Source of the DNA: Tribonema minus
Taxonomy: Eukaryota > Sar > Xanthophyceae > Tribonematales > Tribonemataceae
DNA length: 64,000 nucleotides
Assembly (NCBI GenBank): GCA_017506865.1
Contig: JAFCMP010000066.1
Location: 186,001 to 250,000, forward strand
Reading direction: 5' to 3'
Position numbers and translations under genes: made by a program. The notes under the pieces were generated by a model that made no database searches, had not been told where the DNA came from, and worked only from the letters and a program-made list of their open reading frames with translations. Position 1 is the first letter of the stretch. The number at the start of each line of letters is the position of its first letter. Below, piece after piece: positions 1 through 42,100 of this stretch.

Positions 1-814
1 GTTGAGGCTGAGTAAATGAGAATCCTAATTTTTGTGAACCAAACACCCCTGATCTGTAGCATGCGAGATGTGACACATGTACAGCATACACAAATGCAGT
101 TCGACTTTACCTCGGGCACAAACGCTATGGTCAGCACTCACTCGTGTAGAACACCGTGCTCATGTTGTTGTGAACGCTCTCTCACTGATCAAGACAAGGT
201 TCCGGAGGCGAGCTTGCAGAGCAACGGCAACGTCTCCATACCAAAACGCCTACAACGACCAATGCCTGCGCATGTGCATCATTCATGCCATTGTCTTTTC
301 ACGTGAACTGTGGTGTTGTTGATGCACGCAGTGCGCTGAACCATTGCAGCCAAAATGACAGACACAGCACCCTATCACCACATGTGCTACCGTACGCATT
401 CCCTTTATTAGAGGCACAGACAAGAGGGGGAGGCGCGCATCCCAGCCGCAGCACACGCGTGCGCGCTGCACGGGATGCAGTCACATCAACGCGCGCAGCG
501 CACCGTGCGCCACGACCGAGCGCTGCGCACGCAACACCCGCCACACGCAAAACGGGACACTACTAACATGCGGCAAATGCGCGCGGGGAGGCGCGGTAGC
601 CGCCCAATCCTTCGCGGGCTGCCCACAGAAACGAGCTGCAAATTTGAGCCCATTCCATTCGTATGGCGCTGAAAGGGGGGGGAGGGGGGGGGCACTCAAG
701 GAGCAAGCTGCGTGCAGGGAGAGCAGAAGGCTGTTTCATCACTTGTGCAGAGTTGCCGCCTGCCCCTCCCTGGGCTGCCGTTCACCAGCGGAACTCACTG
801 CGGCAACGCCTGAT
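1..814. other. 3' flank of the CoA-transferase gene, no gene seen
   Basis: I see no supportable gene here. The stretch lies downstream of the stop codon of the minus-strand CoA-transferase gene. It is GC-rich between about 420 and 560, where GCGCTGC-type words recur on the gene's sense strand. G-runs lie near 677-691. The open frames have no splice or homology support. Confidence 0.5.
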
Positions 815-3800
815 CTACCTGACGGAAGGGAAGCTCGGGAGGTCGAACCTGCGGGCGATGCTCGCGGGACGGCGCAGGCCGCGCTTGGTGGCCTCCTCCT
901 GCAACATAGCACATTTAGGAAGGTAGGTATGGGTTACAATGAGTTGTGTCGGCCAAAAATGCCAGCCATCAGTGATGCTGAAGTGATTAAGGGTGTACAA
1001 TCAGCTGATGCCACAAGTCAGGCAGCCCATCATCTGAGCTGGCTGGCACCCGCCCTGCCAACAGGGTTGTGATAGCTGGTATATAGCACATCTGACGCAC
1101 CGGCCCGAGGAACGCCCTGTTGACAGCACACAGGCCGTTGCGCACGACACCAGAGGGCAACGCACCCGCAACCGCAACGCGGCACCAGCATCGAGCAACC
1201 TCACTATATTCGCGCCTTCAGCAACAATTCAAACAGGAGAAGTACCGCATCATCACAACATTGTGAAGTCTCGGCGGCGGTGATACCTACGTACCCTCAG
1301 GTGCTCCCGGTCGTTGGGGTGCGCTACAGCGATCAACGCCTCGGTGCGCTCAGACGTGAGAGAAGCACCACAGCATTACGACATTGTGACAACGCGGTAG
1401 CGACCGGCGATACCCTACGTACCCTCAGGTGCTCCCGGTCATCGGGGTGCGCGACAGCGATCAGCGCCTCGGCGCGCTCGCTGAGGCTGCGCCCGTACAG
1501 GTACGCGATGCCGTACTCCGTAATGATGTAGTGCGCGTGCGCGCGCGTGGTGACGACGCCCGCGCCGGGCGCAATGGCCGGTACGATGCGGCTCAGGCCT
1601 TTGTGCGTGCGCGACGGGAGGGCGAGGATCGCGACGCCGCCGTCGGAGAGCGCGGCGCCTCGCAGGAAGTCCACCTGTTCGCAGTGGGGATAGAAGTACA
1701 CCTGAGCGAGAATTAATAAAAAGTACATCAGAGACACCTTAAACTGCAAAGTCCGTACATGTCTTGCACGGTACGACTGCGAGTACGCATTTCATGCATG
1801 CGCGACGGGAGGGCGAGGATTGCGACGCCGCCGTTGGAGAGCGCCGCGCCGCGCAGGAGTCGACCTGTTTGCGAGGGGCGCGTCAGCGCGGTGAGATGCT
1901 TTTAGACTGCGACGTCCATACCACAGTCTTGTACAGAACACGTTACTCCAAAGCAGTGTGCGTTTGTGCGTGCGCGACGGGAGGGCGAGGATCGCGACGC
2001 TGACGTCAGAGAGCGCGGCGCCGTGCAAGAAGTCGACCTGTTTGCGCAAAAAGGATACTTCGAAGTATATCAGAGACAACTTGAGCAGCGCCGTCCACAC
2101 AAATCTTGTACAGTCGTACAAGTATGCATTCAGTGCGTGTGCGACAGCAGGGCGGGGAGGGGCACAGCCGCCATTGGGTAGCGCGGCAATGCGCAAGAAG
2201 TCACCTTCCAAAATGGGTGTCGTCTAGAGCATGTCGCGACACGATGTTGTCTAGGGTGTCGAACTGTGTGTTTGCGTCTGCTGTGGGCCTTGCTGCGCAC
2301 GCGAGGGGAGAACGTTACCCCTTTTTCTAGATGACTGGCCGCTGGCGACATCTATGCTTTGCGACGAGAATTGGCCTGTGCACACAATGGCAACAGCAGC
2401 GTGCAGCCCATCGCAGTGAAGACACTTGACGCATACGCAAGAGAACCAGCAGCCCAGGATTTGAGGCTCTGGTTCCGACTGAGCACTGCTGCTCTCACCT
2501 GTCCGCCCACGCCGCTGTAGATGCGCGTGCCGATGGAGTCCGCCACCACCTGGCCCGTGAAGTCCACTTCAATGGCGCTGTTGATCGCTGTCATCTGTGC
2601 GCACACAAAAGGGGGGGGGGGGGGGGGCGTGGTAAGTGTTGCGTGTACCAAGGGGGTAGTGGCACACACCCAGTCGCAGAAGGTGTAGAGTGTCAACTAT
2701 AATGGCAATTCCAAATGTATTAGCCCAGCCTTGAGCAGAAGACGAGTGCTTCGGGTGTGCTGCTTGGATCACTGCAAAATGGCAAAATGCGGCAAAACCA
2801 CACAGAGCGCCACTGCACAAAAAAAAACAGTTTTACAGCGAGTGTACGCTCTCAGCAGGTCTTGCCACACCCTTTGGCGTACTTCACATGGCCGCAGTCA
2901 TCGGAAGTTCAACACCTGACGGCACAGATGTCAGGATCGCAGGTCACCCCGTCCTTCTGCCACCGCCACTCAAGTACAGTGCAGCCGCGACTTCAAAATA
3001 TATGCTGTCGAAAGCTGCAATTGAAGTACATGGGCAGTGAATGCCAGCAGTCATCGGCTTCGCAATGCTTCACCACTCTTGGAACTCACCCTGTCCTGCT
3101 GTCGGATCACATGCGGGTCGTTCTGCGTCAAAAGGCACCAGACGGCAAACGTGGGGAAACATATGAGTTGAGATGTAGACAGGTGATCTGTGCACGTGGT
3201 CCTTGCAGATAGTTGCACGAAGCCATGTGAGATGCTCACGCACAGGGTTTAACATGAGAGCATCTATAACGAGTGATAACATGGATCACATGAGGGTCGT
3301 TCTGCATCAAAAGGCACCGGACAGCAAACATATGGGAAAAATGGGGTGATATCTTGCGCGGCAATCTGTGCATGTGGTCCATACAGACGGTCACAGAAAG
3401 CCATGTAAGAGTTCACCCACTCGTTTCAATCTGAGGCCGTGTTGTAAGGGGTGATAACATCGTCAACATGATGGCGCTGTTGCTGAGATGTCCACTCTAA
3501 GAATGCTTCCAAGAAGCAGAATAGAACTGACTTGGTGAACAAGCCTCTAGCCTATTTCCAAGTCGGGACACCGTACGCTCATTGACCATCACGGCCCAAG
3601 ACTGCCCTGGTGAACCAGGCTGTTGGCTCCATGTTGAGCCGTGTCACCCAACATACGTGCTGCCGCCACAGCAACTGTTGCCGCAACACCCACTTAAGGT
3701 TAGGGTTAGAGTTAGGCAGGAGGCATTGCTCAACTGGTGCAAACAACACGCTCAGCGCTGGTGGGGCTTGCATACTCTTGCAACGCCCTTGTCACACACA

Positions 3801-6800
3801 GTGCCACCTAAAATTAGGGCGTGCGTACTTTCATAAAGTTCCGTATTGTGTCCTGACGCAGCAAACAGCAGTGAGCACTTGTACTGCGAGAACACTCAGG
3901 AACCCTGCGACAAAGTCATTTGCTTTAGACGTCAGCAACTACACAAACTTCTCAAGACAGATCGTAGCTGCAGCATCCCCTCCGAGCAAATCTCCTCATC
4001 ACGGACTCGTCCTCCATGTGTGCGTCACTTACGAAGAACTCGACGATGTCTACCAAACTTCAACTCACTGTGTACACGACGTCGCGCATATCTACGACCG
4101 GGCCTTCATCCACAAAGTTGTACACAGCGCCTGCAAGCCCACCAGGTACGTCACCTACTTGAAACTTGAAGATGTCCACCAAACTTCAAATACTCACCGT
4201 GTAGGCAGCGTCGCGCATGTCCACAACCGGGTTGTCATTGACAAAGTCGTTTAGCACCTGCAAGCCTCCACCTACTTACCTACTTGGAATTAGTCAACCG
4301 AGCCTCACCGTGTAGGCAGCGTCGCGCATGTCGACAACCGGGTTGTCGTCGACAAAGTCATACAGCGCCTGTGACCCCACGAGGAAGGTCGACACGAGCT
4401 TGCCGCGGTCGAGCGTCTTGCGGCTGTTGTTGACGACGCCGCTGTCGACAAGCGGCAGCACGCCGTCGCTGAACATCTCAGAGTGGATGCCGAGGTCCTT
4501 GTGATCCGTAAGCTGTGACAAGACCGCATTCGGTATGTTGCCGATACCCAGCTGCGGACATAGGCACGTGTAAAGGCGCGGGGGGGGGGGGGGGGGGGGG
4601 GGAGAAGTGGTAATTTTGCGGACGATACACAGGTTCCAGATACCCTGATAGCGGAGGCCTCGGTCATTGCGTTTCGTGAAATTCAAATGCATCATCAGTT
4701 GCATGTTGCGCTCTCTGTTCCACTCTGAGACCTGCACAGGTCCAGGTAGGTATACACGCATGTGCGCCCCCGCGGGGGGGGGGGAACAGTGCGGCTGGTG
4801 CCAAATACGTGTACTGGAGAACCTCACGGCGGATGCCTCGGTCACTGGGTTCTGTCACGAGCGATTTCAGCATCAGGGCGGTTGGATTTCTGCTTGGTGC
4901 TAGGACATGGCAACTGTGCGGCATTTGTAGGTGCTTGACCACAGGGGGGTGCAGCAGGCTGGGTGTCTATACAGTTTTGCCACATGCCCGGAGCATAATA
5001 ACCCTATCCCTAACGTTCGATGTGCTGACAATGCCCACTTGAAACCGTGCACTGCCCGTCGCATGCTGCCCGATGAGGTCAGTTGAATGCGGCGCTATAC
5101 GCGGCATCAGTGCGCAACGTGTGCAACGCTGCACCATGAGGTCAGCGCCGCCCTATGCACGGCATCAGTGTGCAACACGCAGCTCTCTTATCCGCTCCAA
5201 TTGACTTCACCATTGAAGTTCACACGTGCTCGTGCACCTGTAGCGTCGCGCCGCCACCAAGGGTGCTCCGCGATGAACTCCCCGATGGCGTCATCGGCGG
5301 GCGACACCTACAACGTAACGTCAAAGGCGCAAAGTCTGTAACTTCAAGTCAAAGTACAACACTTCAACCGAGACGCACCTGCAGCGTCGCGCCGTCCACC
5401 ACCGGGCGCTCTGCAATGAGCTTTCTGATGGCGTCGTCCGCGCGCGACCCCTCCTTGGCGTGCGAGGTGTACACCGAGTACGTGTAACTTCAAGTTGAAG
5501 ACCACAACTTCAACACAAGTTAAACATGGGACGCACCTGCAGCGTCGCGCCGTCCACCACGAGGTGCTCCGCGATGAGCTTCCCGTTGGCGTCGTTGGCG
5601 GGCGACCCCTCCTTGCCGTGCGACGTGTACAGCGAGTACGTGTAACTTCAAGTTGAAGACTACAACTTCAACACAAGTTCAACATGGGACGCACCTGCAG
5701 CGTCGCGCCGTCCACCACGAGGTGCTCCGCGATGAGCTTCCCGATGGCATCGTCAGCCGGCGACCCCTCCTTGGCGTGCGACGTGTACAGCGGCTGATCA
5801 TGATAGACGACCCTGTCGAGGTTCGTGTAGTGTATGATGCCGTCGCCGTGAGTCCTCGGCACGTGCTGGTAACCGCACCACAGAAAGAAAAGAAAAAGGA
5901 AAAAAGCCATGTGCACACACAAAGCCGTCAGCTCGAGCAGCAGCATGTACGACCGGCAGCGATGCACATAGATGCTACGCTTTGAGATGCGCAGCCCCAT
6001 CCGCAGTAGCTGCACAAATTTCCTGGCAATCTCTACTGCCGTGCGCTTTGCAGTGCAAAGTTGGTGCTGATGAATGAATTTATCCAGTGGTGACGGCGGG
6101 GCATAGAGCGGTGAGTTTGTACACCGTTCCCTGCACCCGTACATACACTGCAAGACCCTGCTCCGAGCATTGTGATCCTCACCTTGTTGATCATGGCGAT
6201 GACGGTGCGCGCCGTCTGCAGCGCGGCGCGCGTGCAGTCGACGCTCGTCCCCAGCGAGCAGAAGCCGTGCTTGTCGGGCGGCGACACCTGCACCAGCGCG
6301 ACGTCCAGCGGCACGATGCCCTTGCGGAAAACCCTGCAGGGGGGCGGGGGGGAGCAGTGGCAGCGGTGGTGACGCCCAGCAAGAAGTGTTGCAGTGCTCA
6401 ACAAGCGCATTTTGCGGTGACACTGCTCAAATGTCAATGTCGGGGGGCGACACCTGCACCAGCGCGACGTCCAGCGGCACGATGCCCTTGCCGAACACCC
6501 TGCGAAGGGGGGGGGGGGGCGGTGGTGATGCTCAGTCAATTTGCGTCAGAAGTTGCAGTGCTCAATGTGCGCAACGTCCAGCGGCATCGATGCCCTTGCG
6601 GAAAGCCCTGCCAAGGGGCGGGGGGGGGGGGGGGGGGGGGGTTGATGCTTAATCATGATCCTGGCACAGGCAGTGCTGAATGAAGCGCAAACATTCTGCA
6701 GCCGAGTGATGCTCGGTCAGAGTTGTTTCAAGAAGTTGAAGTGGTCAACGAGCGCGACGTCCAGGGGAACGATGCCCTTGCGGAACACCCTGCAGAGCAG

Positions 6801-9800
6801 CAAAAGGCGGTGGTGGCAACGCTCAGCTTGCTTTGTTGCGGTGCATAATGGTGCTAGCACTAGGGCTCAAAGATCGCGTTGCAAGGGGCACGGGGCGGAG
6901 ATGATTCTCGGCTAGAGTTCTGTCAGAAGTTTCACTGCTCAACGAGCACGGCGTTCCAGCGGTACGATGCGCTTGCGGAACACCCCGAAGGGTAGTCAGG
7001 GAGGCGGCGATCCTCAACTGGAAAGAGTACATTGCAGTGCTGAACAAATGCAGAATCACGCAACGTCCTGTGGTGTGGGGCAAGGGGCTGTGGTGATGCT
7101 CAGTCAAAGTCCGTATTATCAAATAGCACTAACCAAGCGCCCTAGACTGTAGGGCGCTGCAAGAGACGGCTCCGTCATCCCGAAAGACTTCTTTTCATAC
7201 ATTGCGATGCTCAGCTGACGCGCAACGATGCCACTGCAAAGCACGCTGCGGGCGGCGGCAGGGGCAGTGAACACGCTTGGTCAGAGTCGTGTCGTCCATC
7301 GCAACGCTCAACTAGCTGGCGAGACCCAATCGATTGGTTTGAATGTGGCGATGCTCCACGCTGCCGGTTCACGTGGTTGCCGCTGCTGCGATTCTTGGTG
7401 AGCTCGCATAATGCATGTTTGTGCAGCACTGCCCAGGGGTGGATGTAGGGTGCGAGTCAGGGGCGCGCGCTACAGTGCAGGAGGCATGCCATGACAAATA
7501 CGCTGTAACAGTATAGTGACACGACCACCCCCGGAGCCTGACATGTCATACATACACAGGAGGTGCTGTTCGACTTCATCCTTCCCGCCGCAGCGGTGTT
7601 TGCAACCATAGCGGAGGTGTCATCGCACCTCCAAGTGAGGTTGGGTCCAGCAATCAAACGCCTAGACAAGCTTGGGCCAGCAATGTAAATAGAATGTCGC
7701 ACCTGGGGGTCTCACTGAGGAAGATGGGGACGTAATCAGCGCGCCCCTCCTGTGTGGCCTTGCGCACATTGCCGCCTGCAGCAGCGATCAACAGCGGCAC
7801 ACGGAGGTCAGGCGCAGCGCGCTATCACCGACGCTTTTGCACGCTGCGTCAGATACTCATTCTTCTGAAAAGCACACAAATGGCCGCGACCACCCATGAG
7901 CGAATTCCACGTCCACCCACATTCACGGCGACATGTCAGAGGCGCATGCACCAGCAAGATTGGAATACTTCCAGTAAAAATTGAAGCTCAAGCACCTGAA
8001 TCTTGGAAACATGAAGTTTGGGCACTCGACGTATCGGTGACAAGACTTTGTCTGTCCACAAGGCACCGCGACGGCCAGCACACGCCTTGCGCAGCAGTGA
8101 AAGGCTCATACACTGGCCTCGCATACATGTTGCAGCAACCAGCAAAGGCGCTCGATGTCGCTCGCCATCGCTCAATCACGCGTTGCCGACCACTAAAGTC
8201 ACTCCTGCACGCTGAGGCAGCGACGCCGAGTACATGCACAGCGCGCGCGCAGCTGACGCAGTTACTCAGCGACGCGTAGTGAAAGCACAGCGCTCAGCGG
8301 TGCTTCATTAAAAGCACAGCGCGCGCAGCTGACCCAGTTTTTCAGCGACGCTATGAGTATTAGCACGGCAGCATGCGCAGCTGACCTAGCCACTTAGCGA
8401 TGCTGTCAGTGACGCTCTCTGAGGACACGCACGGCGGCGCACGCAGCTGGCCTAGACACTTGGCGATGCTGAGTAAACGCACGGCGGTGCGCGCGGCTGA
8501 CCTAGGAAGAAGGACTTGGTCCGGAAGATGCCGTCGCAGTCCTCGGTGACGTAGGGGCAGTCGCCCTCCGTGTGCAGGTGGTAGACCGTGCAGCCCTCGA
8601 GCCGCGCCGCCTTGCCGTGCGCCGCCATGGCGTTGGTCAGCAGCGACGGCGTCGCGGCCATGCCCTGCGATATGTATGTGTGCATGCACGCGTCAGCGAC
8701 CGGCATAATACGATGCCATCTCGAGATCATCTACTTACATCGGTAACTGACCGAAGCACTAACAAGGTTATGTAGCAGCGACGGCGTCGCGGCCATGCCC
8801 TGCAGTATGTATGTATGCATGGGCGGGAGACATGTTGTCATTTTCTAGCGCAGTACAATGCCATCTCCAACTCTTCGCACACTGCATGAGTAATACTTGT
8901 ATAGGTAACTGATTGGAGCATGAACAAGGACAGCAGCGTTGGCTAGCAGCCATGCCCTGCGGCATGCTTGTATGCACGCGCTAGAAATGGCGTCAGTTTC
9001 TGGCACTGAGTCTATCCATGCCAGTGTGCAGAAACGTACAGCATCAGGAACACACGACTACATGGCCGAATCGCCTCACACTGTACACAACTGCCAGGTG
9101 CACATGCGCATTTGGTATGTCAACTTCAAGTGCTATTTTGACTTCAAGTACTTGCCTGTACGAAGATGTTGTCGCCGCTCTTGATGCAAGTGACCGCCTC
9201 TTCCGCGCTGCCGATCTGCCATGCAAGGGTCACCAGGTCGCAAGATACTTGATTGTCAACAACTCAAATTCAACGTCATTAAACTCATACCTAACCTAAC
9301 CCTAACCCTAACCCTAACCCTAGGTGCAGAAGATCAACTGCTGCTTGTGTCCCACGGCTTTCGATGCGCAGACAGTGATACTGAGAACACCAGATTCTGC
9401 AGGCCATAGCAGCATGGCTCAGCAAACAAACGCGCAAAACGCACGATTGGAGGCCCGTTATAGATGAGCATGCGGTAGAACGCTCACTACTGCAGCCACT
9501 GCCACACATCTCTACCGCTTTGATTATTGACACCATGGCCGTTCTGCGGCACAGTCGCGCAACCTCGGGGCGAGGAGACTGGTGAACGCATCACGTCAGG
9601 TGCTGAGCGCTGCCGCCGCGCCGGACGGCATCCTTGGAATCTGCTGCCTCTCTCCTATGCCTAGCACGCATGCCAATGCTTGTGTGACAAGAGCGCACAT
9701 TTATTCGACATCCTTGTGGCAGGTGGGCGACTGCTTGATCAAGTGCGGATTTGAAGAAAGTGAAGATTCGAGAGTTGAGGGTTAGACATGGGCGCGGCAG

Positions 9801-10274
9801 CTTGCGCTTAGCGTCTGGGGTTGGCATTAGAGTTGGGCATACAGCAGTGCTCACCATAGCTCACGCCCGCGGGTTACGGTTAGGGCTAGGCAAACATCTC
9901 ATGATAGACAAACATCTCGTTGCTCACCACAGCTCACAACTTTGCGTTGAAATCGGGGTCATCAGTGCTCACCAAAGGTCATGCCTAGGGCTATGGTTAA
10001 AAGCAGAGTAAGAGATGATGAAAGCGAATCAAAAGATCGCAGAGCTCCACTTCGAAGTAGGTGACAAGGGATGGCTAGCCGCAAGTGCCTGCCACCAATA
10101 ACCGTGGTCACCGTTGCTGCAGATCATGCTAGGGCTAGACATGCGTCAGTGCTCACTCACCATGGGCGTCTTGTTGACGGGAGCCATGGGCTCATGCCTG
10201 TGCATGCCGACGATGCTCTTGTTGCCCCCGCTGGTGTGCAGCGCGCTCGCCTGGGCCAGCTGCAGGGACAGCAT
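815..10274 (-). CDS. Acetyl-CoA hydrolase/transferase family CoA-transferase (11 exons)
   Basis: This is a class I CoA-transferase of the acetyl-CoA hydrolase / 4-hydroxybutyrate CoA-transferase family, which moves CoA between carboxylic acids through a glutamyl-CoA thioester. Exons on the minus strand are 10274-10161, 9215-9156, 8664-8502, 7775-7703, 6333-6183, 5865-5695, 4551-4309, 3122-3090, 2594-2499, 1674-1423 and 898-815. All joins keep frame and give 479 residues, a usual family length. Visible landmarks are GMAATPSLL (from residue 59), FRKGIVPLDVALVQVSPPD, PRTHGDG, the GIGNIP loop (246-251), the probable catalytic Glu269 in GIHSEMFSDG, the GGQVDFLRGA oxyanion loop (366-375), TEYGIAYLYG near the C-terminus and a stop at 815. 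The start is the ATG at 10274. The N-terminus could be an organellar presequence, but this is uncertain. Intron 1 appears to use a GC donor. Substrate preference cannot be read from sequence. Confidence 0.93.
1286..1350 (-). repeat. Copy of exon 10 3' edge plus donor
   Basis: This segment repeats the 3' end of CoA-transferase exon 10 (true edge at 1423) together with the GTACGTAGG donor. It lies downstream of the exon in transcript direction, inside intron 10. The encoded residues AHPNDREHLR are nearly those of the true exon (AHPDDREHLR). Confidence 0.85.
1791..2200 (-). repeat. Three copies of exon 10 5' edge plus acceptor
   Basis: Near-repeats at about 1795-1870, 1963-2045 and 2133-2200 match the start of exon 10 (true edge 1674) with its acceptor. 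Each encodes a variant of VDFLRGAALSDGGVAILALP. They lie upstream of the true exon in transcript direction. The copy farthest from the exon is the most diverged. Confidence 0.85.
2611..2627 (-). other. 17-bp poly-C (sense strand) tract before exon 9 acceptor
   Basis: On the gene's strand this is an uninterrupted C-run about 16 bases upstream of the exon 9 acceptor at 2595. It is in the place of the polypyrimidine tract. Confidence 0.75.
3283..3345 (-). repeat. Copy of 33-bp exon 8 and its acceptor flank
   Basis: This segment repeats the sequence around exon 8 (3090-3122), including the run encoding NDPHVI and the flank before it. It lies upstream of the true exon in transcript direction. The copied donor region is not conserved. 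Confidence 0.75.
4055..4247 (-). repeat. Two copies of exon 7 3' edge
   Basis: Copies at about 4195-4247 and 4055-4125 match the end of exon 7 (true edge 4309), which encodes VDDNPVVDMRDAAYT, followed by a GTGAG donor. The farther copy is the more diverged. Confidence 0.85.
4580..4602 (-). other. 23-bp poly-C (sense strand) tract before exon 7 acceptor
   Basis: This is a homopolymeric C-run on the transcribed sense, about 28 bases upstream of the exon 7 acceptor. It is a likely polypyrimidine tract. Confidence 0.75.
5225..5660 (-). repeat. Three copies of exon 6 3' edge plus donor
   Basis: Copies at about 5530-5646, 5375-5482 and 5225-5300 match the second half of exon 6 (true edge 5695) and its GTGCGTC-type donor. 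The first two keep an open frame with near-identical peptide (for example KLIAEHLVVDGATLQ), while the farthest is badly decayed. None has a matching acceptor. Spacers hold TTGAAGTTGA-type motifs. Confidence 0.88.
6440..6990 (-). repeat. Four copies of exon 5 5' edge plus acceptor
   Basis: Copies at about 6440-6505, 6565-6612, 6740-6795 and 6945-6990 match the start of exon 5 (true edge 6333), encoding variants of FRKGIVPLDVALVQVSPPD. Those nearest the exon carry their own C-rich tract, with a 22-bp C-run on the sense strand at 6620-6641. They lie upstream of the exon in transcript direction. Confidence 0.85.
8770..8980 (-). repeat. Two copies of exon 3 5' edge plus acceptor
   Basis: Copies at about 8772-8825 and 8930-8980 match the start of exon 3 (true edge 8664), encoding GMAATPSLL, with the CAG acceptor flank. 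They lie upstream in transcript direction. Confidence 0.85.
9289..9322. repeat. Interstitial CCCTAA array
   Basis: About five units of CCCTAA (with two CCTAA units) lie in intron 1 of the CoA-transferase gene. The unit is that of TTAGGG-type telomeres, so it also hints at the host's telomere repeat. Confidence 0.9.
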
Positions 10275-10384
10275 GCGGCGCGTGCAGTCGATGATGCTGC
10301 CAACTCGGGTAAATTGAATGTGTGCACTGACATGGCTCCAGGTACTTCTACATTTTTGAGGATATTTCTACCCGCATACATCAC

Positions 10385-10670
10385 CGCTGGTGTGCAACAA
10401 GCTGGCTCTTGGGCCAGCTGTGACAGCACGAGTGACGGCGCGCGGCGCGTGTGATCGATGATGCTCAGCGACTCATGTGCGCACGAGCCGTGCAGCAATC
10501 AGGGCTCTTCCCTGCTGAAGCGGTCTTTGAGGTGGACACGGCAGCGCCCTTCCGGGCCGTGGCATATGCAGTGCTGGTGCGCAGCGCGCTCGCCTGGGCC
10601 AGCTGCTTAGGGTTAGGGTTAGGGTTGGCGGCAGGGACAGCGCATGGCGCGTACGGTCGATGATGCTCCC
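10385..10670 (-). repeat. Two copies of the first coding exon region
   Basis: Copies at about 10390-10465 and 10570-10670 match the start of the first coding exon (true ATG at 10274), including the words encoding LAQASALHT and the sequence before the ATG. The farther copy is split by a TTAGGG array at 10606-10630. They lie upstream of the gene, so they may overlap its 5' UTR or promoter. Confidence 0.8.
10606..10630. repeat. TTAGGG array inserted into an exon copy
   Basis: The duplicated exon word GGCCAGCTGCAGGGACAG is interrupted here by about 25 bp of TTAGGG repeats. Both sides resume the parent sequence. Confidence 0.85.
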
Positions 10671-13600
10671 AGCTCAAGTAGAATTCAAAGTGTGCACTAC
10701 ATGGGTACATTTTCTCCTTCGACAATGACAATATTTCTACCCGCATACATAAAAGCAAATTGGATAAATAGCGTAGAAGAGTGATACGACTACTGTTGAG
10801 CCCAACGAGGTACTGCTGTAGGTACAACTACACATTGCACCACTTGTAGATTGTACTGTACGACTAGATTGCACCACTTGTAGATCGGGTGCTAGATTAG
10901 AAATCATACCTGGTCTAGTTCCGTTCCACACAACACATCACCAGCACGTCTCCGTGTGTACAGGGGGCGATGTGATTTATCCTACTTCCAGAACTCCAAG
11001 AAGTACTTCAACATTGGCAAACATACTAGATTACACTGTAGGATATTCGTACTCATTGCCACAACACAGCTTCACAAATCCGCATCTGCAGACCTGACTA
11101 CAAAAAGTGAGCGTTGCAGCTGTCAACCATAAGTTACACAAGGCAAGTAACTGGTCGTCGTTGCTCCATTACTTCAGCAGTAGATTCACCATCCTGGAAT
11201 GAGCCAAGTTCATGAGGGAGGTCAATTCTCCTTTTGGGCTGTGACCACATTGTGATTGCTCATGCGGTGAGCTAGTTTATAGAAAAAAATCAAGTTCAAT
11301 ACATTACATACTCAGGGAGTCCAATTCAACAGGTCCGAGACCAGGCAGGTGCACGTGCACACATATCCACAAAACCATATGTTCCTCAACCGAATGTCAT
11401 TTAACTCAAACATAGGCACTAATAATCAATATTCAAATGGATGCACACTGTTATTCAATAATTTTACGATAGCATTCGCTACTCCCCACCAGAACGCCGG
11501 CAAATCTCGACAGGAGCGCTTCTGTGTCGGCGCGCTCTCGCGTGTTTGTGCCTGCTTCATAGCTACAGGGCAAACATGGTACCAGGGACCACAAAAGCGT
11601 CTGCTTTCTGCTGAGGACGGTGCTTATACGCTGCCGCTATGCTGCCGTGTGTACGTGTGGAACGCGAGTAATGAAAAAAAAAACACGACCAATGGGCCCT
11701 TGTTAGGCATTCATTGTGTCACGACCACCAAATTACTACTGCAGACACTGCGCATTGTATAATGTTCGCGTTTTTTTATGACTTACTGATGAACTGGATT
11801 CTACAATGCTTTTTCGTCAGTCCCGATCACTTATTACATTAAGCTACTTGCATTCATTGATTAAAATAAGTGTTCCCAAGCGAAAGTAGGTTTTGAATGT
11901 GCGGCCTTCAGGTCGCTAGTGTCAATCCCACGTTGTCACATGAGCTGATCGCCTTGACCAGCTTGAGCTCGCTTTGTTTGCAATGGCCATGGCTTTTGGA
12001 GACGTAAAAACTTGTGGTTCTGCAGCCACATGCCATTCATACAGCAGTGCACCCTCTCGCTATTGTCATGCAAATAACACTACATACAATACACTTATGC
12101 CAGCACAAGCCGCTACTGAACCAGCAGTGGCTGTGCTTAGTTTGTTTCAAGTGCGACCACTGTGCATTCTCCCACCTATGCTGTTTCGGCGATGGTTTGA
12201 AAGTCAGAGCTTGACTGAACGCATTATGATGGGTGTCTGCCCTCTTCAAGCAAGTGAATACCTGATCGCTGTATGAGCACCATCATATTTCAACAATTGA
12301 AGCAGCGAATCGACTGTTGTGGAAGCCACGATCTTTCAAATGGCTGGGAGGCAGTTAAGAGTGAGGGAGTCTTCTCATGCAAGTGACCGTTTACGGCGGT
12401 GATGGGTCACTATAAGCTTTTAAGAAAGTTCATGACTTCATGACTTTGGTGTTGATTTACTTATTGTTTTGAACTGCTATGGATTGCTCAAAGCGATTCA
12501 ACGGAAGCTAACGAGAACAGGCCTCGGCACACGGGGTGGCGCAGAGACAGTTCGAATCTAGCATTGCCCTGCACCTGAGCAGGCATAGCACTGCCGGAAG
12601 CCTGATGAGTACCTCTAGTGCATTGCAAAGCTGACTCCACGATTACACCTCGCTAAGTGCACTGAGGCTGTGCTTGCAGTCTATAACCGATGAGCCAACA
12701 GTTAGCGAAACTCCGTGTCGAGAGAACAAACGACTTCTTGCGCAAGACCTTTTATCATCGCGGTGTCTCACCGTAACGCCATCGATTCTCCTTCCCGTCA
12801 CAGCAGCAGCCACGCTCCTGCCTCCCGAATGAGCCGCGAGCCTGCACAACAGCGCGGTGAGTCGGGGTTTTCGAAATACGGTGAAGCAGGATCTTTTTTT
12901 TCGCAGTCTATTGTGACAATGGGTACACAGTGGTGGTCAGACGTACCGCTTCGCGCACGCCCTGAGGGCAGGCCTTGTTACAAAGCTTCTTGTCGCCATG
13001 GTCGTCGTCCTGGTGTTGTGAGAAGTCTCGTGACTCAAGAAACAAGTTCAAGTTCTCAGGAAACGGCCAACCAAACGTTTTGCAGTTCGCAAGCCGCGTG
13101 TGCTGGAGCTCTGGAGAGCTCCATGCAGTGGTCGCTGTGAGGCGGCAAACGGTCGCAAATTGGAGCTATGCGAGTGTGCGCCTGCCAAGCCAGAGAGCGC
13201 GCGCCCCGATGCATCGATGAATCAGTTGTCAAATAATATTCATACTTCTCTTGAGCACTACCGAGTCTTCACTCATGTCTGGGCGAGCCATCTGGTCCTC
13301 ACGTTAATGCTCAAATCTTGCTATGATGCCAGTCTAGGCTGCAATGGGCGCCCGCGTTCACCTGCAGGAGAATGCCTATGCTTCGATGTGCTGGTGTGTA
13401 CGGTGTTGCGTTAGCAGTAGCTTTCACCTCAACGCACATGTGTACACCTCGTCACTGCGGCCTCTGCGGATTTGAGCATGACCTGCACTGTGAGTTTATG
13501 CGGCAGCGACCACATTCAAAGTTCCGATAAGTTCCGATAATGCGACTGGTGCTGGTGGGTTGTGGCAGTGTGCTATGCAGGTGCGAATGCTCCCTCGGTG

Positions 13601-24406: not shown

Positions 24407-27400
24407 TAGCTGTAAGGAATCTACATGTCGTATGACAGTCTGAAAGTGTCGCAACGACAACCACTCAAACGCCACCGCCGCCAAATGGCATCTCGGGGTC
24501 CTCCCCTACGTCCTCCTCCATGTGCCCCCCCCCCTGGATTCTGCCATGTGTGTCATGACACGGCCAGAGTACGCCATGTGGAGCGCTGCCGACAGTGCCG
24601 AGCGTAAGCGCGCCAGGGCGATGCCCTTGAGAGCTTTAGGGCGCGCTCCTCCGGGCACTGACATCCTGCTGGCATACTCCGTCGCCACAGCCTCCAGCAG
24701 CTTCCGCCCCAGCTCCCCGATGCTGCCAAATGACCCTATTGCCAAAGTGGCAAGTTTGTAGCAATTCTGATCATAATGACCAGAATAGTGGGTAGTCTTG
24801 GCGGCCTCCTGGTCGCGGCAGCATCGCTCAGGGTCTGCTGCAGTCTTCGTCGCCCGCGACGCCACCTGTGCCTCGAAGCAGGTAACGTCCACCATGAGCG
24901 GTAGGTGGCGTGTCGGGTCGTCGTAGCCGGTCACCGGGAAGGCGTCGGCAGGCAGCACGATGTCCATCCTGCGACTCCCCGGCGGCCCGGCGGACCCCAG
25001 AAACGGCGTGTAGTCCTCGTCAACCAGTCCCGTTTTGAGGTATTGCCGCAGGATGCGCTGCGTGGCCCTCTTGACGCTATTATGGACGATGGTGTCGTGC
25101 GCCTTGACGCGTGGCGCTTGACATAGCCGTGCATGCAGGGTGCCGCCCGGCGACTTCCCGCACAGCTTGCAGCCTGTCGTCTGTTCCTCTACTCCGATGG
25201 CGCGTTTGACGGCCAGTTGCCAGGATAGGCCGTCGAACGAAGCCGTTGTGGAGTACATGGGCTCGTTGAGGAATGCCATGCCGATCGAGTGCATGTGGCG
25301 CTGCGACCGGAATCGAGCAAGTGCTTGCGTGCGTTGCGTGCCCTGCGGCAGCTGTTGCAGGTCCGCCTCCACCTTATCTGCAAGCTCGGTAGCGACGGCA
25401 AGCGCACTCTGATTGGGGCGCTTCAGGCTACACTGCAACTGCAGAGCACTGACGTCAAGTACGCAAACAGCCTCCGCACCAGTGCCACCACCTGCTGTCG
25501 GCCGCAGCGGCGGCTGCTGCGTAGGTGGTTGCTGCTGCAGTGGCGTTAGCGCTGGTGGCAGTGTATGTTCCAGCTTGTCACCTGTTGCTGCACGTAGGGA
25601 TGCGGCAGCTGTGGCGATCGTCCGCATGAGGGGCAGGCGCGCCACCTCTGCTGCTGCTGCGCCTTGTAGCATTGCTGGTGTGGAACGCGCAGCGCCTGCA
25701 TTGACGGCTGCCGTGCGCTGGTGCTGCAGCTGCGCCGCCTGCCGTTGCTGCTGCTGCCAGTGGTGTTGCTGCTGCCGCAGGTGTTGGTGCAGCACCTGCC
25801 GCATTGGCCGCTGCCACCGCCATTGCCGCTGTCGCAGCCGGCATGATTGCGGCGCCGCCTGCCGACGCTGCTCCTGTTGCAGGTGCTGCAGCAGCCCTAG
25901 TAGGGCCTGGAGCAGCTGTGTTGCCTATGCCCGCAGCAGCTGCTGTTGATGCTGCAGTTAGTGATGCCGCCGAGGCCACTTGAGGTGCAACATGTGCTGC
26001 AGCTGCTGCAGCAGCTTCTGATGCTGGAGCAGCTGCTGCTGCCGCCGCCGCTGCTGCCGCCGGAGTAGGTGCGCCGTGCGCCGCCGCTGCTGCTGCCGCT
26101 GGTGCCGCCTGTGCTGCCGCCGCGGCCCCTGATCCAGCGGCAGCTGCGTCGTGTGTTGCCGGAAAGGCTGCGCCATAAGCGCGGCCTGCCGCTGATGCAG
26201 TTGCTGCTGCCGGAGCGGTCGCGCCTCCACTGGCAACCGCCGCTGCCGCTGTAACAGTTGCCGCTGCTGATGCTGCTGGTGCTGGTGCTGCTGCCGCTGC
26301 TGCCGGTGCCGCTTGTGTTGCCGCATCCTCAGCAGCGTCGTCTGCAGCCGCTTGAGGAGCCGCCTGCTGCATCACCCCCGCCCATCCAGAGAGTGCTGGT
26401 TGCAGCGCTTGCAACGTGCCCGCCACATACGCAGCATCAGCGATGTCGCAGGCGCTGGTAATGCCAGGCCGCCATGCCGTGTTGGGAGTCGCGCTTGCTG
26501 TAAGGCTGGGTCGTGTGCTGCCAGATGGAAGTGGGCCCCACTTTGCTCAAACTGGTGCCAGGTCTGGCCTGGTGGCTGCAGGCCCATTGAGTGCTCAAGC
26601 ACCCACTGCGTGACACGATCCCACTCCTTGGCGGCTGGCGCTGTCTGCGTAGTGGGAATGGTGCGCAGGCAGTACGTCATGCGAGGCACCACGCAGTAGC
26701 GCAGTAACCTGAACATAGCCCTCGGAGATGTCAGGCGCGCGCATCGCTCTGCGAATCAAGCCCCTGCCCCGCCTGCACCCGCTTCCCTGCGCAGCCATGC
26801 GTCCTCAAAGCTGCTGTGGCCCACCGACACCCCCAGCAACACAGCTCCACGGTTCTGATTTTCATCCGTATCCCCCACTAGCTGAACGCCCAGCTGCTGC
26901 AGCAGTTGCCGCTCGTGGTCTGTCACCACATGCCCCCTGCCAGGCAGCGCGCGTGACTTGGTGAGGTTTAGCTCCAGCCCCACCTCCGCAAAGTGTTGTT
27001 TGAGCTGCGCCACCGCCTGTATGTCATCCTGAGTCAGCGTGCAAGCGCCTGTTCGGACGTTGGCATCGTCCATGTAGGCGCCCATCCGCCTCCGCGCGCG
27101 CTGCGCGGCTGCCGCCTCATTGAACCGTTTCAAGCACTGAGCAATGGCGCCGCAGAAGAGCATCGGTGCTGCGGGGCCCCCCTGCTCAAACCCGCGCTGA
27201 GACATGATGATGCGCGTGGAGCCGTCGACGGCTGGAACAGCAGGCGTGGCCGAGTGCGAACGTATGTGCCGATGAAGTAGTCGAGGAAGTCCGGCAGCTG
27301 TGCTGCTACCCATTCCGCTGCCGCCAGGACGAACACCATGTTGAAGGCATTCTTGAGGTCCAGCATGAACTGCCAGTGACCAAGCTCATACGCGAGTTTG

Positions 27401-36171: not shown

Positions 36172-39100
36172 ATGTCTTCCGTAGTACACATCCGCTGCAG
36201 CAATGCGCAGAAGTTCACGGTGCCTCTCGACACCTCCGTTACTGTGGGAGCCTTTAAAGCCACCATAGCGGAGCAGGCACAGGTCCCAGCTGAGTCCCAG
36301 CGCCTGATTTACAAGGGCAGAGTTCTCAAGGATGACCAAACTCTCGCCAGTTACGGTAAGAGCACCCTCGATGACAAGTATGTTCTACCTTCTTGCTTGA
36401 CGCCTGCAGAGGTGCACAGTTAGCGCCTGCTATGCACCTCATGTTGTCCTTCACGCAGTCAGCAACTCAACATTCTTGAACCTTCCCTCGTCTTGTACAC
36501 CGACAGACGTACAGCCGGACACAACCATTCACCTCGTGCGGGGTGCACGGCCGGCGGGCGAGGCAGCCGCTGCAGCGCCGACAGCAGCAGCGGCGCCGGC
36601 GGGCATGCCGGCGGCGGCGGCAGCGGCACCCGCCGCTCCACCAGCGTTTGGCGGCGCACCGGCCGGAGGGTCCGCTGCTGATATGCTGGGAATGATGCAG
36701 GGGATGATGGGGGGGGGCGCGGACATATCTCGCATGCAGCAGCAACTGCTGTCGAACCCCGAGATGATGGCGAACATCATGAACAGCCCCATGATGCAGG
36801 TGAGAGGGGAATCTGTGCCCCAGTTGAACTTGATGTGCACCTGCCAACTTGAACCACGTCATTGCGCGAACTTCAATTTTCTGCAAGCAAAGTTGGTGAT
36901 CATAGTGCTGTGCCTGGCGCATATTTCAGGCCTAGGGTCTTCAGTCATCTGCAAACATGAAGGGCTGATGATCATTCAGTGTGTCAGTCAGACAGACGCC
37001 ATCACGCTCAGCCTTAGCCGACGCGGACTGTCACCACGGCCTGCACTGTGTGTGGTCGAGCATGTTGGCATGAGTGGCGTAGCCCTTAGTTTGCATACAC
37101 TTCATGGCGGCTGCCTTTCTTCAAACAAACTACTCAGGAGCACACTGTGTCACAGTACCCGCAGGTGCGTTCGTCAGAAGCCTATGTACAGACACGACCC
37201 ACTTTTATCATGCTGTGTGATTGAAGGTGGTGACATGCTACAACGACACATACTTTGTGAAATGTACCCGCACTCTTCACACAAGTACGTCTCGTTAGAA
37301 GCCTCGCATTGCGAGCTCGTCGTTGCTTCGATACAAAGCCTCCACCCAATCGAGCGGCGTGCCATGGTGTGCTGCTGCTGCACGGCAACTTCGTTTCTTT
37401 GAGAATTTCGTCCGCTATCGATGCACCAGTCGCTTCACAATCGCAAGTGGAACATCACTTGCGGCAAAGTGTCACCTCACAAGGCTGCTAATTACCAACT
37501 ATTTCTAGAGAGGTGGCTATTTTTCAGTTGTGTTTCTCGGCCTCGCAGATTTGTCATTTACACATGCATTACTTAGCCCACTCTTATTTTGCTGTGAAAC
37601 AAAGACGATATGCAGCACTGCCAGCAGTATGCGCCGAGTGTTTAAGGCGCCTCAGGCAAACTTGTCGCCCCGCCCCTGCCTTCAGCCAGCCCATTACACT
37701 GCGCTGCGTATAGTCATCGTAAACTTCACAAGCTGTAGTACAAGCGGTAGCGTAAGCGCAACTGACGCCGCGCGGTGCAGTCACCGGCAATTACTGCGCT
37801 GCTGACGGCACCCTTGCCTTGCAGTCATGACTCACTGAGTGCTGCGCCTGTCTCTTCCCTCTCTCGTTCTAGGGCCCCCTGAACGCCCTGGAGACGCTGT
37901 GCAGCATGGTCACAGCCAATCTGCAAATGCTGGTGGCAGGTAACCATCAAGTGCTGAGCACTGCTGACCAACCTCCATGGCTTGCGCGCCTCATTGCAGG
38001 GCCTGCTGAACGACCCCGAGACGCTGCGCAGCAGGGTCACGGGCAACCGCAGATGCGCCAGGTGCTGCTGGAAGCGAATTGGCAGCAAACCCTGACCCTA
38101 AAACTAACTTTAATCCCAGCCCTAACCTCGACTATGGTTGACCGAGTGCCGCATACTCCCCTCGCGCTATCCCCGCCGCTGCAGGGCCTGCTGAACGACC
38201 CCGAGACGCTGCGCAGCATGGTCACGGGCAACCCGCAAATGCGCCAGGTGCTTGAGGCGAACCCGCAGCTCGCGCACGTGTTCAACGACCCCGCAGTCAT
38301 CCGCCAGTCGCTGGAGATGATGCGCAACCCCGCCGCGATGCGCGAGGCGATGCGCTCGCAGGACCGCGCGATGAGCAACCTCGAGACGCACCCGGAGGGG
38401 TTCAACGCGCTGCGCCGCATGTACACGGAGATGCAGGTAGGCAGAAGTTGAGGTTATAGTTGAAGTTGAGGTTGAGTGCGCTCGCAGGATCGCGCCACGA
38501 GCAACCTCGAAACGCACCTGGAGGGGTTCAGCGCGCTGCGCCGCATGTACACGGAGCTGCAGGCGGGCAGTGTTTCAGGCCACGTCTAGGGCTAGGGTCA
38601 GGGTAGTTACATTACAGTTGCTGTTGAGGTTGCTGTTGAGGTCAGGGTTAGGACCCCGCAACCGTGCCAGAGGCGCGCGCCTGGGCTAGGGGTGTGTGTG
38701 CCTACAGCCAGCGATAGTACCAGTAGTGGCTGCTTTCTACTGCTAGTAGCGGTCGACAGGCGGGGCACACCATACCTGGTTCTTGATTATTTTGTAAACG
38801 TCAAATTATACACAGGTCAGCTGACGTTCCCACCATGTCTCCATTTTACCCGGGAGCCTATGCTGGCCCTGTCAACCCCCCAGAGCAGCAGCAGCAGCAG
38901 CAGCACTACCATTTAAGTATTCTGTGTACGACTCTTGTCTGTTCATGTACTTTGAAAAAGTATGACAGTAAGGAACAGTGCTCGACCGATGTCTTCAATT
39001 GCATTGGCATGTTCGCAGGAGCCTATGATGGAGGCCATGTCGAACCCGGAGCAGCAGCAACAGCAATCAGGCAGCGGCGGCGGCGGTGCGGGCGCGGCGG

Positions 39101-42100
39101 CAGGCACTGCAATGCCCAACCCCTGGGCAGCCCCCGGCGCAGCCCCTCAGGTGTGTGTGGTTCAGTATTGCCAACACATACATATCCCATATGCATGCCC
39201 GAAGTGTTCATCAATGAGGTATATGTACTTCTATACGTACACATATATATATTCCAGTGCACCCCTTCGAATGTGTGCACTTTGCACCGCTACGCCTGCA
39301 AGCGACGGGCTTGAGGCCTCGGGTGTGTGTCGCTCAGCATTGCAAAATATAGTATCAGAGTACATCAGTTGTGAGGCGCCAGACGGTAGTCGCGAGTGGT
39401 TGCGGTTAGGGTTAGGGTTAGGGTTAGGGTTGGGGTTAGGTCCCAGTAGCCCGACGCTGACGAAGAAGCTTGTGCAGAAAACTCAGTCTTCATCTGAGGG
39501 TTGGGGTTTCGTAAATAGATGTGGTCGGCAGTGCTTTGAATTGAAGTATACACGTGCTGCCAAATATCATGGATTGTACATCCCCGTCCTGGTGCGAGAC
39601 CCCCCCTTCTGCGGAATAAGGTCCCTGTCTCCCTAGGGTAGAAGTGTGTGTGTGTGTGTGTATGCCGATTGGCGGCGCGCTGTCTGAGACGGGGCGTTTT
39701 AAGCAAGGGGAAACAGGCAGTTGTACAAACTTCAAGTCATGCACGCTAGGCTCAAGTCATCGTCTTGGCAGATCTTGAGATGGAGGGACCATCGTGTAGG
39801 CAGGTGATGCGCCCTGTGTTGCTGCAAAAACACTCTTGCTGCCAGCAGCAGTGTGCTGTAGTAGCAATCAGCTGTAGTTAGGGTGTCTGTTCCGCTGCCC
39901 ATCCCGCTCACGTGCCGTGCCCACCATGACCTCATGATGCATAACTATAACCCTAACCCTAACTAACTTCAACTCCATGCCGACAGGCCGCTGGGGCAGC
40001 GGGCCAACTTTAACCCCATCCCTATGCGCAACGCATGTGACAGAGTATTGTGTGCCCAGGGTTTAGGTAGATTTAGGGTTGGGGTTAGGGTTTCCTCACC
40101 GCGCTCACCTGCTGTTTCCCCCTATTTGCGTGACGCGCTCTACGCTGACAGGCCGCCGGGGCAGCGGGCGCGGGCGCAGCAGCTAGGGTTAGGGTTTCCG
40201 TTCAGCTGCTCACCCGTTCACCTGCCGTTGCCCCATTACCTCATGATGCATATATATAAATCCTAACCTCAACTCCGTGCCAACAGGCCGCGGGGGCAGC
40301 GGGCGCGGGGGCGGCAGGGGCGAATCCGTGGTCGTCGCTGATGGGGGGGGCGGGCGGCCCCCCCCCCGCGGGCATGGCCCCCCCGGGTATGGCCCAGGAT
40401 CCCGCAGCAGTGCTCAACATGATGCAGAACCCCATGGCGCAGGACATGATTCGGCAGGTGCGTGCGGCTGACTGAGACTTGAAGTTGAGGTATTATGGAG
40501 ATTCGAAGTTGGAAGTTGGATCATGGAAGCTGAAGTCGTGTGATATCCTAAGGGGACCCTGATGGAGACTTGAAGCTGAAGCTATGTGCCTCATGAGACC
40601 CTGCAGCCTTGCTCAATGTGATGTAGAGCCCATGAGTTGCATGCCTCAGGACCCCACGGCAGTGCTCAGCATGATGCAGAACCCCATGGCGCAGGACATG
40701 ATTCGGCAGGTGCGTGCACTGGTGTAGTAGACGGGCTGACAAGGCAATTTCAAGCTGAAGTTGTGTGCCAGGGCCCCGCAGCAGCGCTCAACATGATGCA
40801 GAACCCCATGGCGCAGGACATGATCCGGCAGGTGTGTGCGCTATATAGTAGGGCTGATGGGGGATCTTGAAGTTGAAGTTGCGTGCTCTCTTGGGACCCG
40901 TAGCGCGTCCATCTGGCCCTCTCTTCATCCATCGGTCTGCGTCAGATGAAGTGCATATATATGTACTGTGTAGACTAGACATGTATGCACTCCTGGACTG
41001 CAGTGCCTTGATGCTGTACACTCTGCTCTTGTTCACCTTCGACAACGAGCAGCCCTGGTTGCGCCTAGAACTAGGGTTAGGTTTACGTCACGCCCATCTG
41101 TTCTTTGTGCGTTCACCTGCTTCCGTTCACATCAGATGAACAAGCAACCCCGATTCCATGCGCCTCTGTCCCGCAATGCGTTAACCCAGTACATGCGCCC
41201 TCTCCTTCCACTCGTGTCACCTCGGATGACGAGCAATCCCGATTCCACGCGCTTCTGCATGACCATGCATTGACCGGTACATATACTGATACCCTCTTTC
41301 TATCGGTTTGTTCACCTCAGATGACAAGCAATCCAGCGGTGGTGGAGCAGATGCTCAACATGAATCCGCAGCTGCGCGCGATGGTGGATGCTCAGCCGGG
41401 GATGCGCCAGCAGCTGCCGCAGCTGCTGTCGGGAATGTCGGACCCTGCCAATCTGCAGGCGATGATCCAGATGCAGCAGAGCATGGCGCAGCTGCAGGTA
41501 TGCATGTATATCTGATTCTATACTTCAAGTGTCTACTCAAGATGGCACACATACTAGATCCGTCATATAGTATATCGGTGTACGTTGCTATAGTATATTG
41601 TGTATGTACCGTCGGGCATGTCGGACCCCGCCAATTTGCAGGCGATGATACAGATGCAGCAGAGCATGGCGCAGCTGCATTGGCAAACTGAAGTAGGACA
41701 ATATACGTGTGTACGTGCACTTGCAAGTGGCACAGACAACTCATGCGCACGCACGGCAGCACGCTGGCAAGACCCTCCTCAGCACGCATCGTATACAAGC
41801 AGAGCATGGCGCAGCTGCATTGGCAAACTGAAGTAGGACAATATACGTGCGTACGTGCACTTGCAAGTCGCACAGACAACTCATGCGCGCGCGCGGCAGC
41901 ACGCTGGCAAGACCCTCCTCAGCACGCATCGTATACACAAACTGCAGGCACCCTACATATACGCACACTGCCCCTCTCTCACCACCCCTTTGCGGCCCAT
42001 GACTCCCTCTCACACAGTGAGACATCTCTGAATCCGCACGACTGCGGTTGGCCACGGGCAAAGCGTCCGAGCTAGTGCGCACATATTCAGGTCTGCGGCA

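Follow-up and report, generated by a model that had tools for sequence, protein, structure and literature searches.

In the xanthophyte (yellow-green) alga Tribonema minus, exon edges are copied outward into the adjoining introns, apparently by a form of tandem genomic duplication, in the same orientation and locally, which recurs at the existing introns of many genes. We read the copies as fossils of repeated local DNA duplications, each across a single splice junction, and place the probability of this reading at roughly 0.72. In the proposed course of events, a segment comprising part of an exon, its splice site and flanking intron would be duplicated beside itself, the two copies often being set apart by unrelated filler of tens to about 160 nt. 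An intact mRNA being required, the inner site would stay in use and the surplus edge would join the intron, where it would decay neutrally. The next duplication would copy the living edge again and displace the older copies outward, introns thereby lengthening from their ends; the source would be the end-joining of staggered breaks with fill-in across junctions.

The analysis started from a window of 64,000 nt, whose minus-strand CoA-transferase gene (Pfam AcetylCoA_hydro and AcetylCoA_hyd_C) had been described in an earlier note as having eleven exons. All eleven could be placed from reading frames and GT/GC-AG ends (e1 to e11, Table 1), and two further exons have to be added at the 5′ end, near 13.0 kb and 12.8 kb. 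The inner splice sites were compared with P0003, a EukProt transcript protein with 97% identity over 73% of the predicted window protein, which fixed the 5′ edge of e1 (ctgcag followed by CTGGCC) at 10259. P0003 joins the inner sites letter for letter at seven of the ten junctions (e1/e2, e2/e3, e3/e4, e4/e5, e6/e7, e7/e8 and e8/e9); at e5/e6 its join falls at the same place, flanked by three residue differences. It leaves e9 early, so that transcript support excludes e9/e10 and e10/e11 and hence the inner sites of e10. After this exit, its C-terminus (CVAVVKFKLKLH) resembles translated intron sequence at 5640-5675 and may represent an aberrant isoform. The intron after e2 has a GC donor instead of GT (9155-9154, minus strand).

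Self-blastn of window positions 1-11200 (same strand, any distance, E<1e-3) returned 31 rows, of which 18 touch an exon, and each of these 18 covers one edge only. They comprise eight copy sets on seven exons, with 5′ edges copied upstream (e1, e3, e5, e8, e10) and 3′ edges copied downstream (e6, e7, e10), all on the same strand and at most 651 nt away. E-values of the best row per set range from 8e-16 (e3) to 4e-115 (e6), which excludes a chance origin. The earlier note had listed these same eight sets with the same polarity, had seen no full exon duplicate and had proposed a self-alignment with exon coordinates overlaid; that alignment reveals edge-restricted, outward copies, and the pattern around the gene is confirmed as genuine. 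A short array past the e3 donor (8353-8505), holding only the last four exon letters, is a possible ninth set below the threshold used.

Table 1. Exons, exon-edge copies and associated features in the window (positions in nt; empty cells, no entry).
Feature	Position	Strand	Identity	Observation	Basis
CoA-transferase first coding exon (MATRSFVTRPALRACAKR)	12946..12999	-		lower end approximate	tblastn of P0003 N-terminus
CoA-transferase second coding exon (LAAHSGG..DGVT)	12770..12841	-		ends approximate	tblastn of P0003 N-terminus
e1	10259-10161	-		5′ edge copied upstream	self-blastn; P0003
e2	9215-9156	-			gene model
e3	8664-8502	-		5′ edge copied upstream	self-blastn
e4	7775-7703	-			gene model
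e5	6333-6183	-		5′ edge copied upstream, 4x	
e6	5865-5695	-		3′ edge copied downstream, 3x	
e7	4551-4309	-		3′ edge copied downstream, 2x	
e8 (33 nt)	3122-3090	-		19 nt of 5′ edge copied upstream	
e9	2594-2499	-			gene model
e10	1674-1423	-		both edges copied	
e11	898-815	-			gene model
e1 5′ edge, copy	10384..10417	-		exon part	self-blastn
e1 5′ edge, second copy	10573..10602	-		exon part	self-blastn
Telomere-like (TTAGGG)n run	10607..10626 (also given to 10635)	+		in acceptor region of outer e1 copy	sequence
e3 5′ edge, copy	8774..8799	-		AG kept	offset 135
e3 5′ edge, second copy	8928..8956	-		AG kept	offset 292
e5 copy 1	6438..6499	-	95%		offset 166
e5 copy 2	6569..6607	-	92%		offset 274
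e5 copy 3	6748..6789	-	90%		offset 456
e5 copy 4	6942..6984	-	84%		offset 651
e6 copy 1	5537..5634	-	94%	entire 158-nt unit contiguously duplicated, intron part 97%	
e6 copy 2	5379..5476	-	87%		
e6 copy 3	5238..5309	-	85%		
e7 copy 1	4198..4260	-	89%		
e7 copy 2	4069..4152	-	73%	intron-copy joint resembles paralog's	
Array with e8 5′ edge copy	3283..3474	-		exon part 3283-3301	
e10 5′ copy 1	1769..1864	-	85%		
e10 5′ copy 2	1960..2037	-	90%		
e10 5′ copy 3	2133..2204	-	74%		
e10 3′ edge, copy	1237..1351	-	91% (exon part)	includes donor	
Ubiquilin exon (Pfam UBQLN1)	38185..38436	+		both edges copied	
Its 5′ edge, copy	37995..38066	+	96%	starts 5 nt before splice site	
Its 5′ edge, more diverged copy	37871..37930	+	83%		
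Its 3′ edge, copy	38477..38570	+	90%	donor now GC	
Ubiquilin exon ending 40457, 3′ edge, copy	40641..40717	+	92%		
Ubiquilin exon ending 40457, 3′ edge, second copy	40768..40840	+	93%		
Ubiquilin exon ending 41497, 3′ end, copy	41611..41679	+	94%	ends just short of donor	

An independent second case lies in the same window, where four exon edges of a plus-strand ubiquilin gene (37871-42557) are copied outward. In the whole genome (158 Mb, 554 contigs), kinesins served as the gene sample (132 Pfam matches), their loci being picked for several matched exons and not for repeats; one doubled match in contig C246 had been noticed before that locus was retrieved. Sixteen kinesin loci, the window CoA-transferase gene and its paralog constitute a set of 18 genes, whose known spans contain 68 arrays: 40 cover one exon edge, 27 cover none and one (locus L039) covers a whole exon that is itself not repeated. 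Counted as alignment rows, which are not independent events, 3′-edge copies lie downstream in 26/26 cases and 5′-edge copies upstream in 47/47, and the corresponding counts in 14 further kinesin genes are 18/18 and 11/11. Edge rows of the 18 genes are at most 700 nt apart in 69 of 73 cases, the other four all belonging to L044. No copy in either set sits on the wrong side of its own exon, and whole-exon copies number zero both in the rows of the two sets and in the arrays of complete introns. Whole-exon duplications, named in the earlier note as evidence that would speak against its claim, are thus absent from the window gene and from the kinesin genes compared, and tandem exon duplication, which would copy a whole exon with both splice sites, was rejected.

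Some rows were set aside from these counts. In the 18 genes, they are 22 rows of L043 (17 interior and 5 inverted, from GCC-type coding repeats) and 15 unclassified exon-exon rows; two interior rows are left, one in L036 beginning 10 nt in from a refined edge and one in L046, where the edge is unrefined. In the 14 genes, they are 17 unclassified exon-exon rows, 13 interior rows (8 in C168, of low complexity, and 5 in C73, with unrefined edges) and 11 inverted rows (4 in C168 and 7 in C148, from GCC-type repeats). At least two of the copies in C73 carry the donor. Array-free genes (L037, L045) and introns (5 of the 12 in the replication set described below) also exist.

The earlier note had taken the strict polarity as a sign of outward duplication by which these introns grew. 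The edge restriction, the local and recurrent character of the copies and their presence in many genes all stand, but the polarity itself is no evidence for an outward-facing mechanism. Outward orientation, edge restriction and the lack of whole exons are expected because a local duplication across one junction is combined with selection for an intact mRNA: one copy remains attached to the body of the exon, and the other has to fall on the intron side together with the splice site, while duplications of whole exons or within exons would alter the mRNA and be purged.

What is truly anomalous is that duplications spanning a junction are too common relative to those confined to introns. We considered complete introns, that is, those with both splice sites refined and lying between adjacent matched exons, of which there are 44 (27 from kinesins, 10 from the window gene and 7 from the paralog). 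Of the 35 arrays in these introns, 11 are internal and 24 cover a junction (a donor in 11 cases, an acceptor in 13), against 8.0 expected (sd 2.4) under uniform duplication, an expectation computed with unit length and intron length. With the window gene left out, since it was chosen for its copies, 17/26 arrays are at junctions against 6.0 expected, and in a replication set of 12 complete introns the figures are 7/11 against 3.0 (sd 1.4). The window gene alone has 8/10 arrays at edges. These proportions bear on the simplest rival, namely that slippage or unequal crossing over duplicates DNA uniformly anywhere in introns and that edges merely stay recognisable through exon conservation. Some contiguous tandem arrays do lack a known exon edge, and neither the polarity nor the lack of whole exons needs a special mechanism under this explanation. 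In forward simulations that froze the exons, let introns evolve neutrally, allowed indels and deletions and applied the detection used on the real data, however, only 25-34% of arrays were at edges when rates were equal, far from the 8/10, 24/35 and 7/11 observed, while fourfold hotter junctions gave 55% and eightfold hotter ones 67-73%. We hence regard uniform duplication as improbable. Within the limits of the simulation, which has a single gene layout, 800-nt introns and duplication blind to base composition, the observed edge share would call for junctions roughly four to eight times hotter.

Edge-covering arrays make up 29% of intron bases (12,027/41,010 in 56 complete introns), and introns with such arrays have a median length of 824 nt (n=25) versus 549 nt for those without (n=31; p 0.0005). 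The effect on gene architecture is therefore large.

Exon-derived parts of the copies are 71-100% identical to the exon and better kept than the intron parts, and AG or GT/GC is retained in 45 of 50 copies, as might be expected if the copies were selected as functional decoys or alternative exon ends. The mismatch between exon and copy is, however, 0.095, 0.073 and 0.174 at codon positions 1, 2 and 3, and 0.204 in the aligned intron part (50 copies). This is the pattern of neutral debris, in which only the codon positions 1 and 2 of the master are held, and it led us to reject selection on the copies. In the absence of selection, an estimated 40 or so of the 50 would still have the dinucleotide at 90% identity, and use of the copy's own splice site would keep an open frame in only 5/50, the frame being broken or a stop met in 45/50. 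A decoy function is accordingly very improbable.

The order of the copies suggests an age gradient outward from the exon. At 13 edges, with that of e1 taken 2 nt off in the copy listing and in this comparison, the farther copy is the more diverged in 28 pairs versus 6, with one tie; when only the nearest and farthest copies are compared, 10/13 edges fit (p 0.09). The serial copying proposed in the earlier note is thus supported as a trend by the pairs and falls short in the stricter comparison. Gene conversion between the exon and old copies could keep the exon parts alike, so that copies seem too young. Copy-copy mismatch is indeed lower in exon-derived (104/815, 0.128) than in intron-derived sequence (288/1358, 0.212), in pairs that are not independent, and one copy in L036 (exon 150-233; gene-oriented 5895-5960) matches its exon at 66/66 letters with an intron part near 70%, which suggests conversion from exon to copy in that instance. 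Lower exon-derived mismatch is nevertheless expected if each copy was taken from a conserved edge at a different time; conversion would look alike, serial copying from a conserved exon yields the same average, and the age trend persists. As a general explanation, conversion therefore seems rather unlikely to us.

The paralog of the CoA-transferase gene (C190:475781-479917; L003, L004) encodes a protein 85% identical to that of the window gene and has smaller introns. It has no introns at the positions e2/e3, e4/e5, e5/e6, e9/e10 and e10/e11 of the window gene and possesses two that the window gene lacks. Both genes share the copy-bearing e6/e7 and e7/e8 introns. In the paralog, too, the e7 counterpart has had its 3′ edge copied, and alignments between the genes pass without a break from the exon across the intron into the e7-edge copy (430 nt at 77% and 203 nt at 80%), with a similar joint between intron and copy. 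Judging from these alignments, the e7-edge duplication probably preceded the gene duplication, exchange between the paralogs being an alternative source of the likeness. The absence of several introns from the paralog raised the possibility that the copies are remnants of newly born introns, which we rejected as copies are also found in shared introns. Intron creation by AGGT duplication was likewise dismissed: the copies carry one junction plus intron, and they sit in introns shared with the paralog. An assembly artefact, for which nothing speaks besides the repeats themselves, is scarcely credible given exon-part identities that span 71-100%, copies on many contigs and one copy probably common to a paralog on another contig.

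The nearest copy abuts its edge (gap of at most 14 nt) at 14/35 edges and lies at least 28 nt away at 21/35. Clean young tandem duplications of 60, 101 and 140 nt (95-97%) have a spacer of 0 and no microhomology, a fourth (L012, 90%) has a 5-nt overlap, and other young copies are separated by 47-164 nt of filler. One young filler (L049) was single copy in a genome-wide search, and ten fillers compared with 261 kb of loci gave as cross-locus matches the homologous intron of the paralog and short telomere-like stretches. A mobile element as filler was rejected on these grounds for the fillers searched, as were introner-type elements, since the fillers searched do not place the same insert in many unrelated genes.

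Interstitial telomere runs number 57 in the 261 kb (2 of them counted twice, L030 lying inside L045) versus 0.7 in mononucleotide shuffles, whereas 15 kb of exon contained none, although the overall density predicts about three. The telomere unit was taken as TTAGGG because contig C2 starts with a long run of it. Such runs occur in introns and intergenic regions of the window, at 9290-9322, 10607-10635, 39404-39427, 59651-59674 and elsewhere. The window also contains a retroelement reverse-transcriptase remnant on the minus strand (24797-27232; Pfam RVT_1 at 26801-27232), with similar stretches near 46-47 kb; matches to locus L014, at 85-90%, occur near 24.3-25.0 kb and 47 kb. A search against Rfam at gathering thresholds gave no match.

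In several young copies, the match ends close to the junction, at +3, +8, +8, +8, +9 and -1 of donors and at about -5 and -8 to -14 of acceptors, positions that were gathered after being noticed and whose count is descriptive only; other copies (L036 97-154, the second copy of L036 150-233, L039 223-268, and those of e5 and e6 in the window) run farther into the intron. Ends of this kind could be produced by RNA-templated insertion of exon ends protected by the spliceosome, which we consider most unlikely, as the loci examined contain no copy on the other side of its exon and as contiguous units with long intron parts are also present. The position of these ends may instead be a survival effect, a duplicate needing only to include a working site; alternatively, breaks or copying may sense the junction.

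Returning to local duplication across single junctions, the young duplications without microhomology, the filler and the telomere runs make end-joining repair of staggered breaks the favoured and best-supported candidate source, and exons or junctions would be mutational hotspots. Several observations run against this model: a simple contiguous repeat is the exception among edge copies (21/35 being separated), several young copies stop within about 10 nt of the junction, unlike the product of random breakpoints, the L036 copy points to gene conversion, the nearest-farthest comparison falls short of significance, and some genes or introns have no array. A stronger version, in which splice junctions or their bounding exons are duplication hotspots, transcription- or splicing-linked breaks copy the living edge repeatedly and introns act as an age-ordered conveyor belt, is a possibility that we hold tentatively and at less than even odds.

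To our knowledge, intron lengthening without transposons is poorly documented. The nearest case found, going by the portion of the article available, is the RdRp gene of potato (PMC4974935), where a tandem duplication also crosses an intron-exon border, in a single gene; there the duplicate makes a new intron with a cryptic donor, whereas in Tribonema seemingly silent copies lengthen introns already present, repeatedly and across many genes. The creation of introns by AGGT duplication, as outlined in the excerpts at hand, shares with Tribonema a local duplication of gene sequence that is later hidden by splicing, but derives introns from exon with a pair of AGGT motifs, in contrast to the single-junction copies in pre-existing introns described here. 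Repair of staggered breaks has been proposed for intron gain (PMC3443670), and the features in common, as far as the accessible sections describe them, are a staggered break, gap filling and repeats flanking the insert; in Tribonema, by comparison, the repeats have tens of letters, are found at junctions that already exist and build up serially. In mouse cells, according to the part of the source available, cNHEJ of breaks with overhangs yields short tandem duplications as a major product, while duplications by the alternative pathway are almost all tied to microhomology (PMC5730883). These duplications are likewise short and local, one pathway occasionally adding inserts, yet they stem from laboratory breaks and, in those extracts, have no tie to splice junctions, unlike those of Tribonema. 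Telomere-type repeats are a mark of break repair in mammals, inserted at break sites of the horse and human genomes (PMC7215372), where the passages available similarly report scattered internal telomere repeats, some with duplication of flanking sequence; that work concerns mammals, and in Tribonema the telomere runs are only background evidence of break repair in introns. In open-licence PMC text, we found no description of the repeated growth of existing introns by silent border copies in many genes.

Introns that carry datable copies of their own borders allow intron growth to be measured in individual genes, in its rate, its direction and its mutational source. Should junctions prove to be true hotspots, the sites of DNA duplication would be shaped by splicing or exon structure. 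The stacked, decayed copies would provide a readable record of intron growth.
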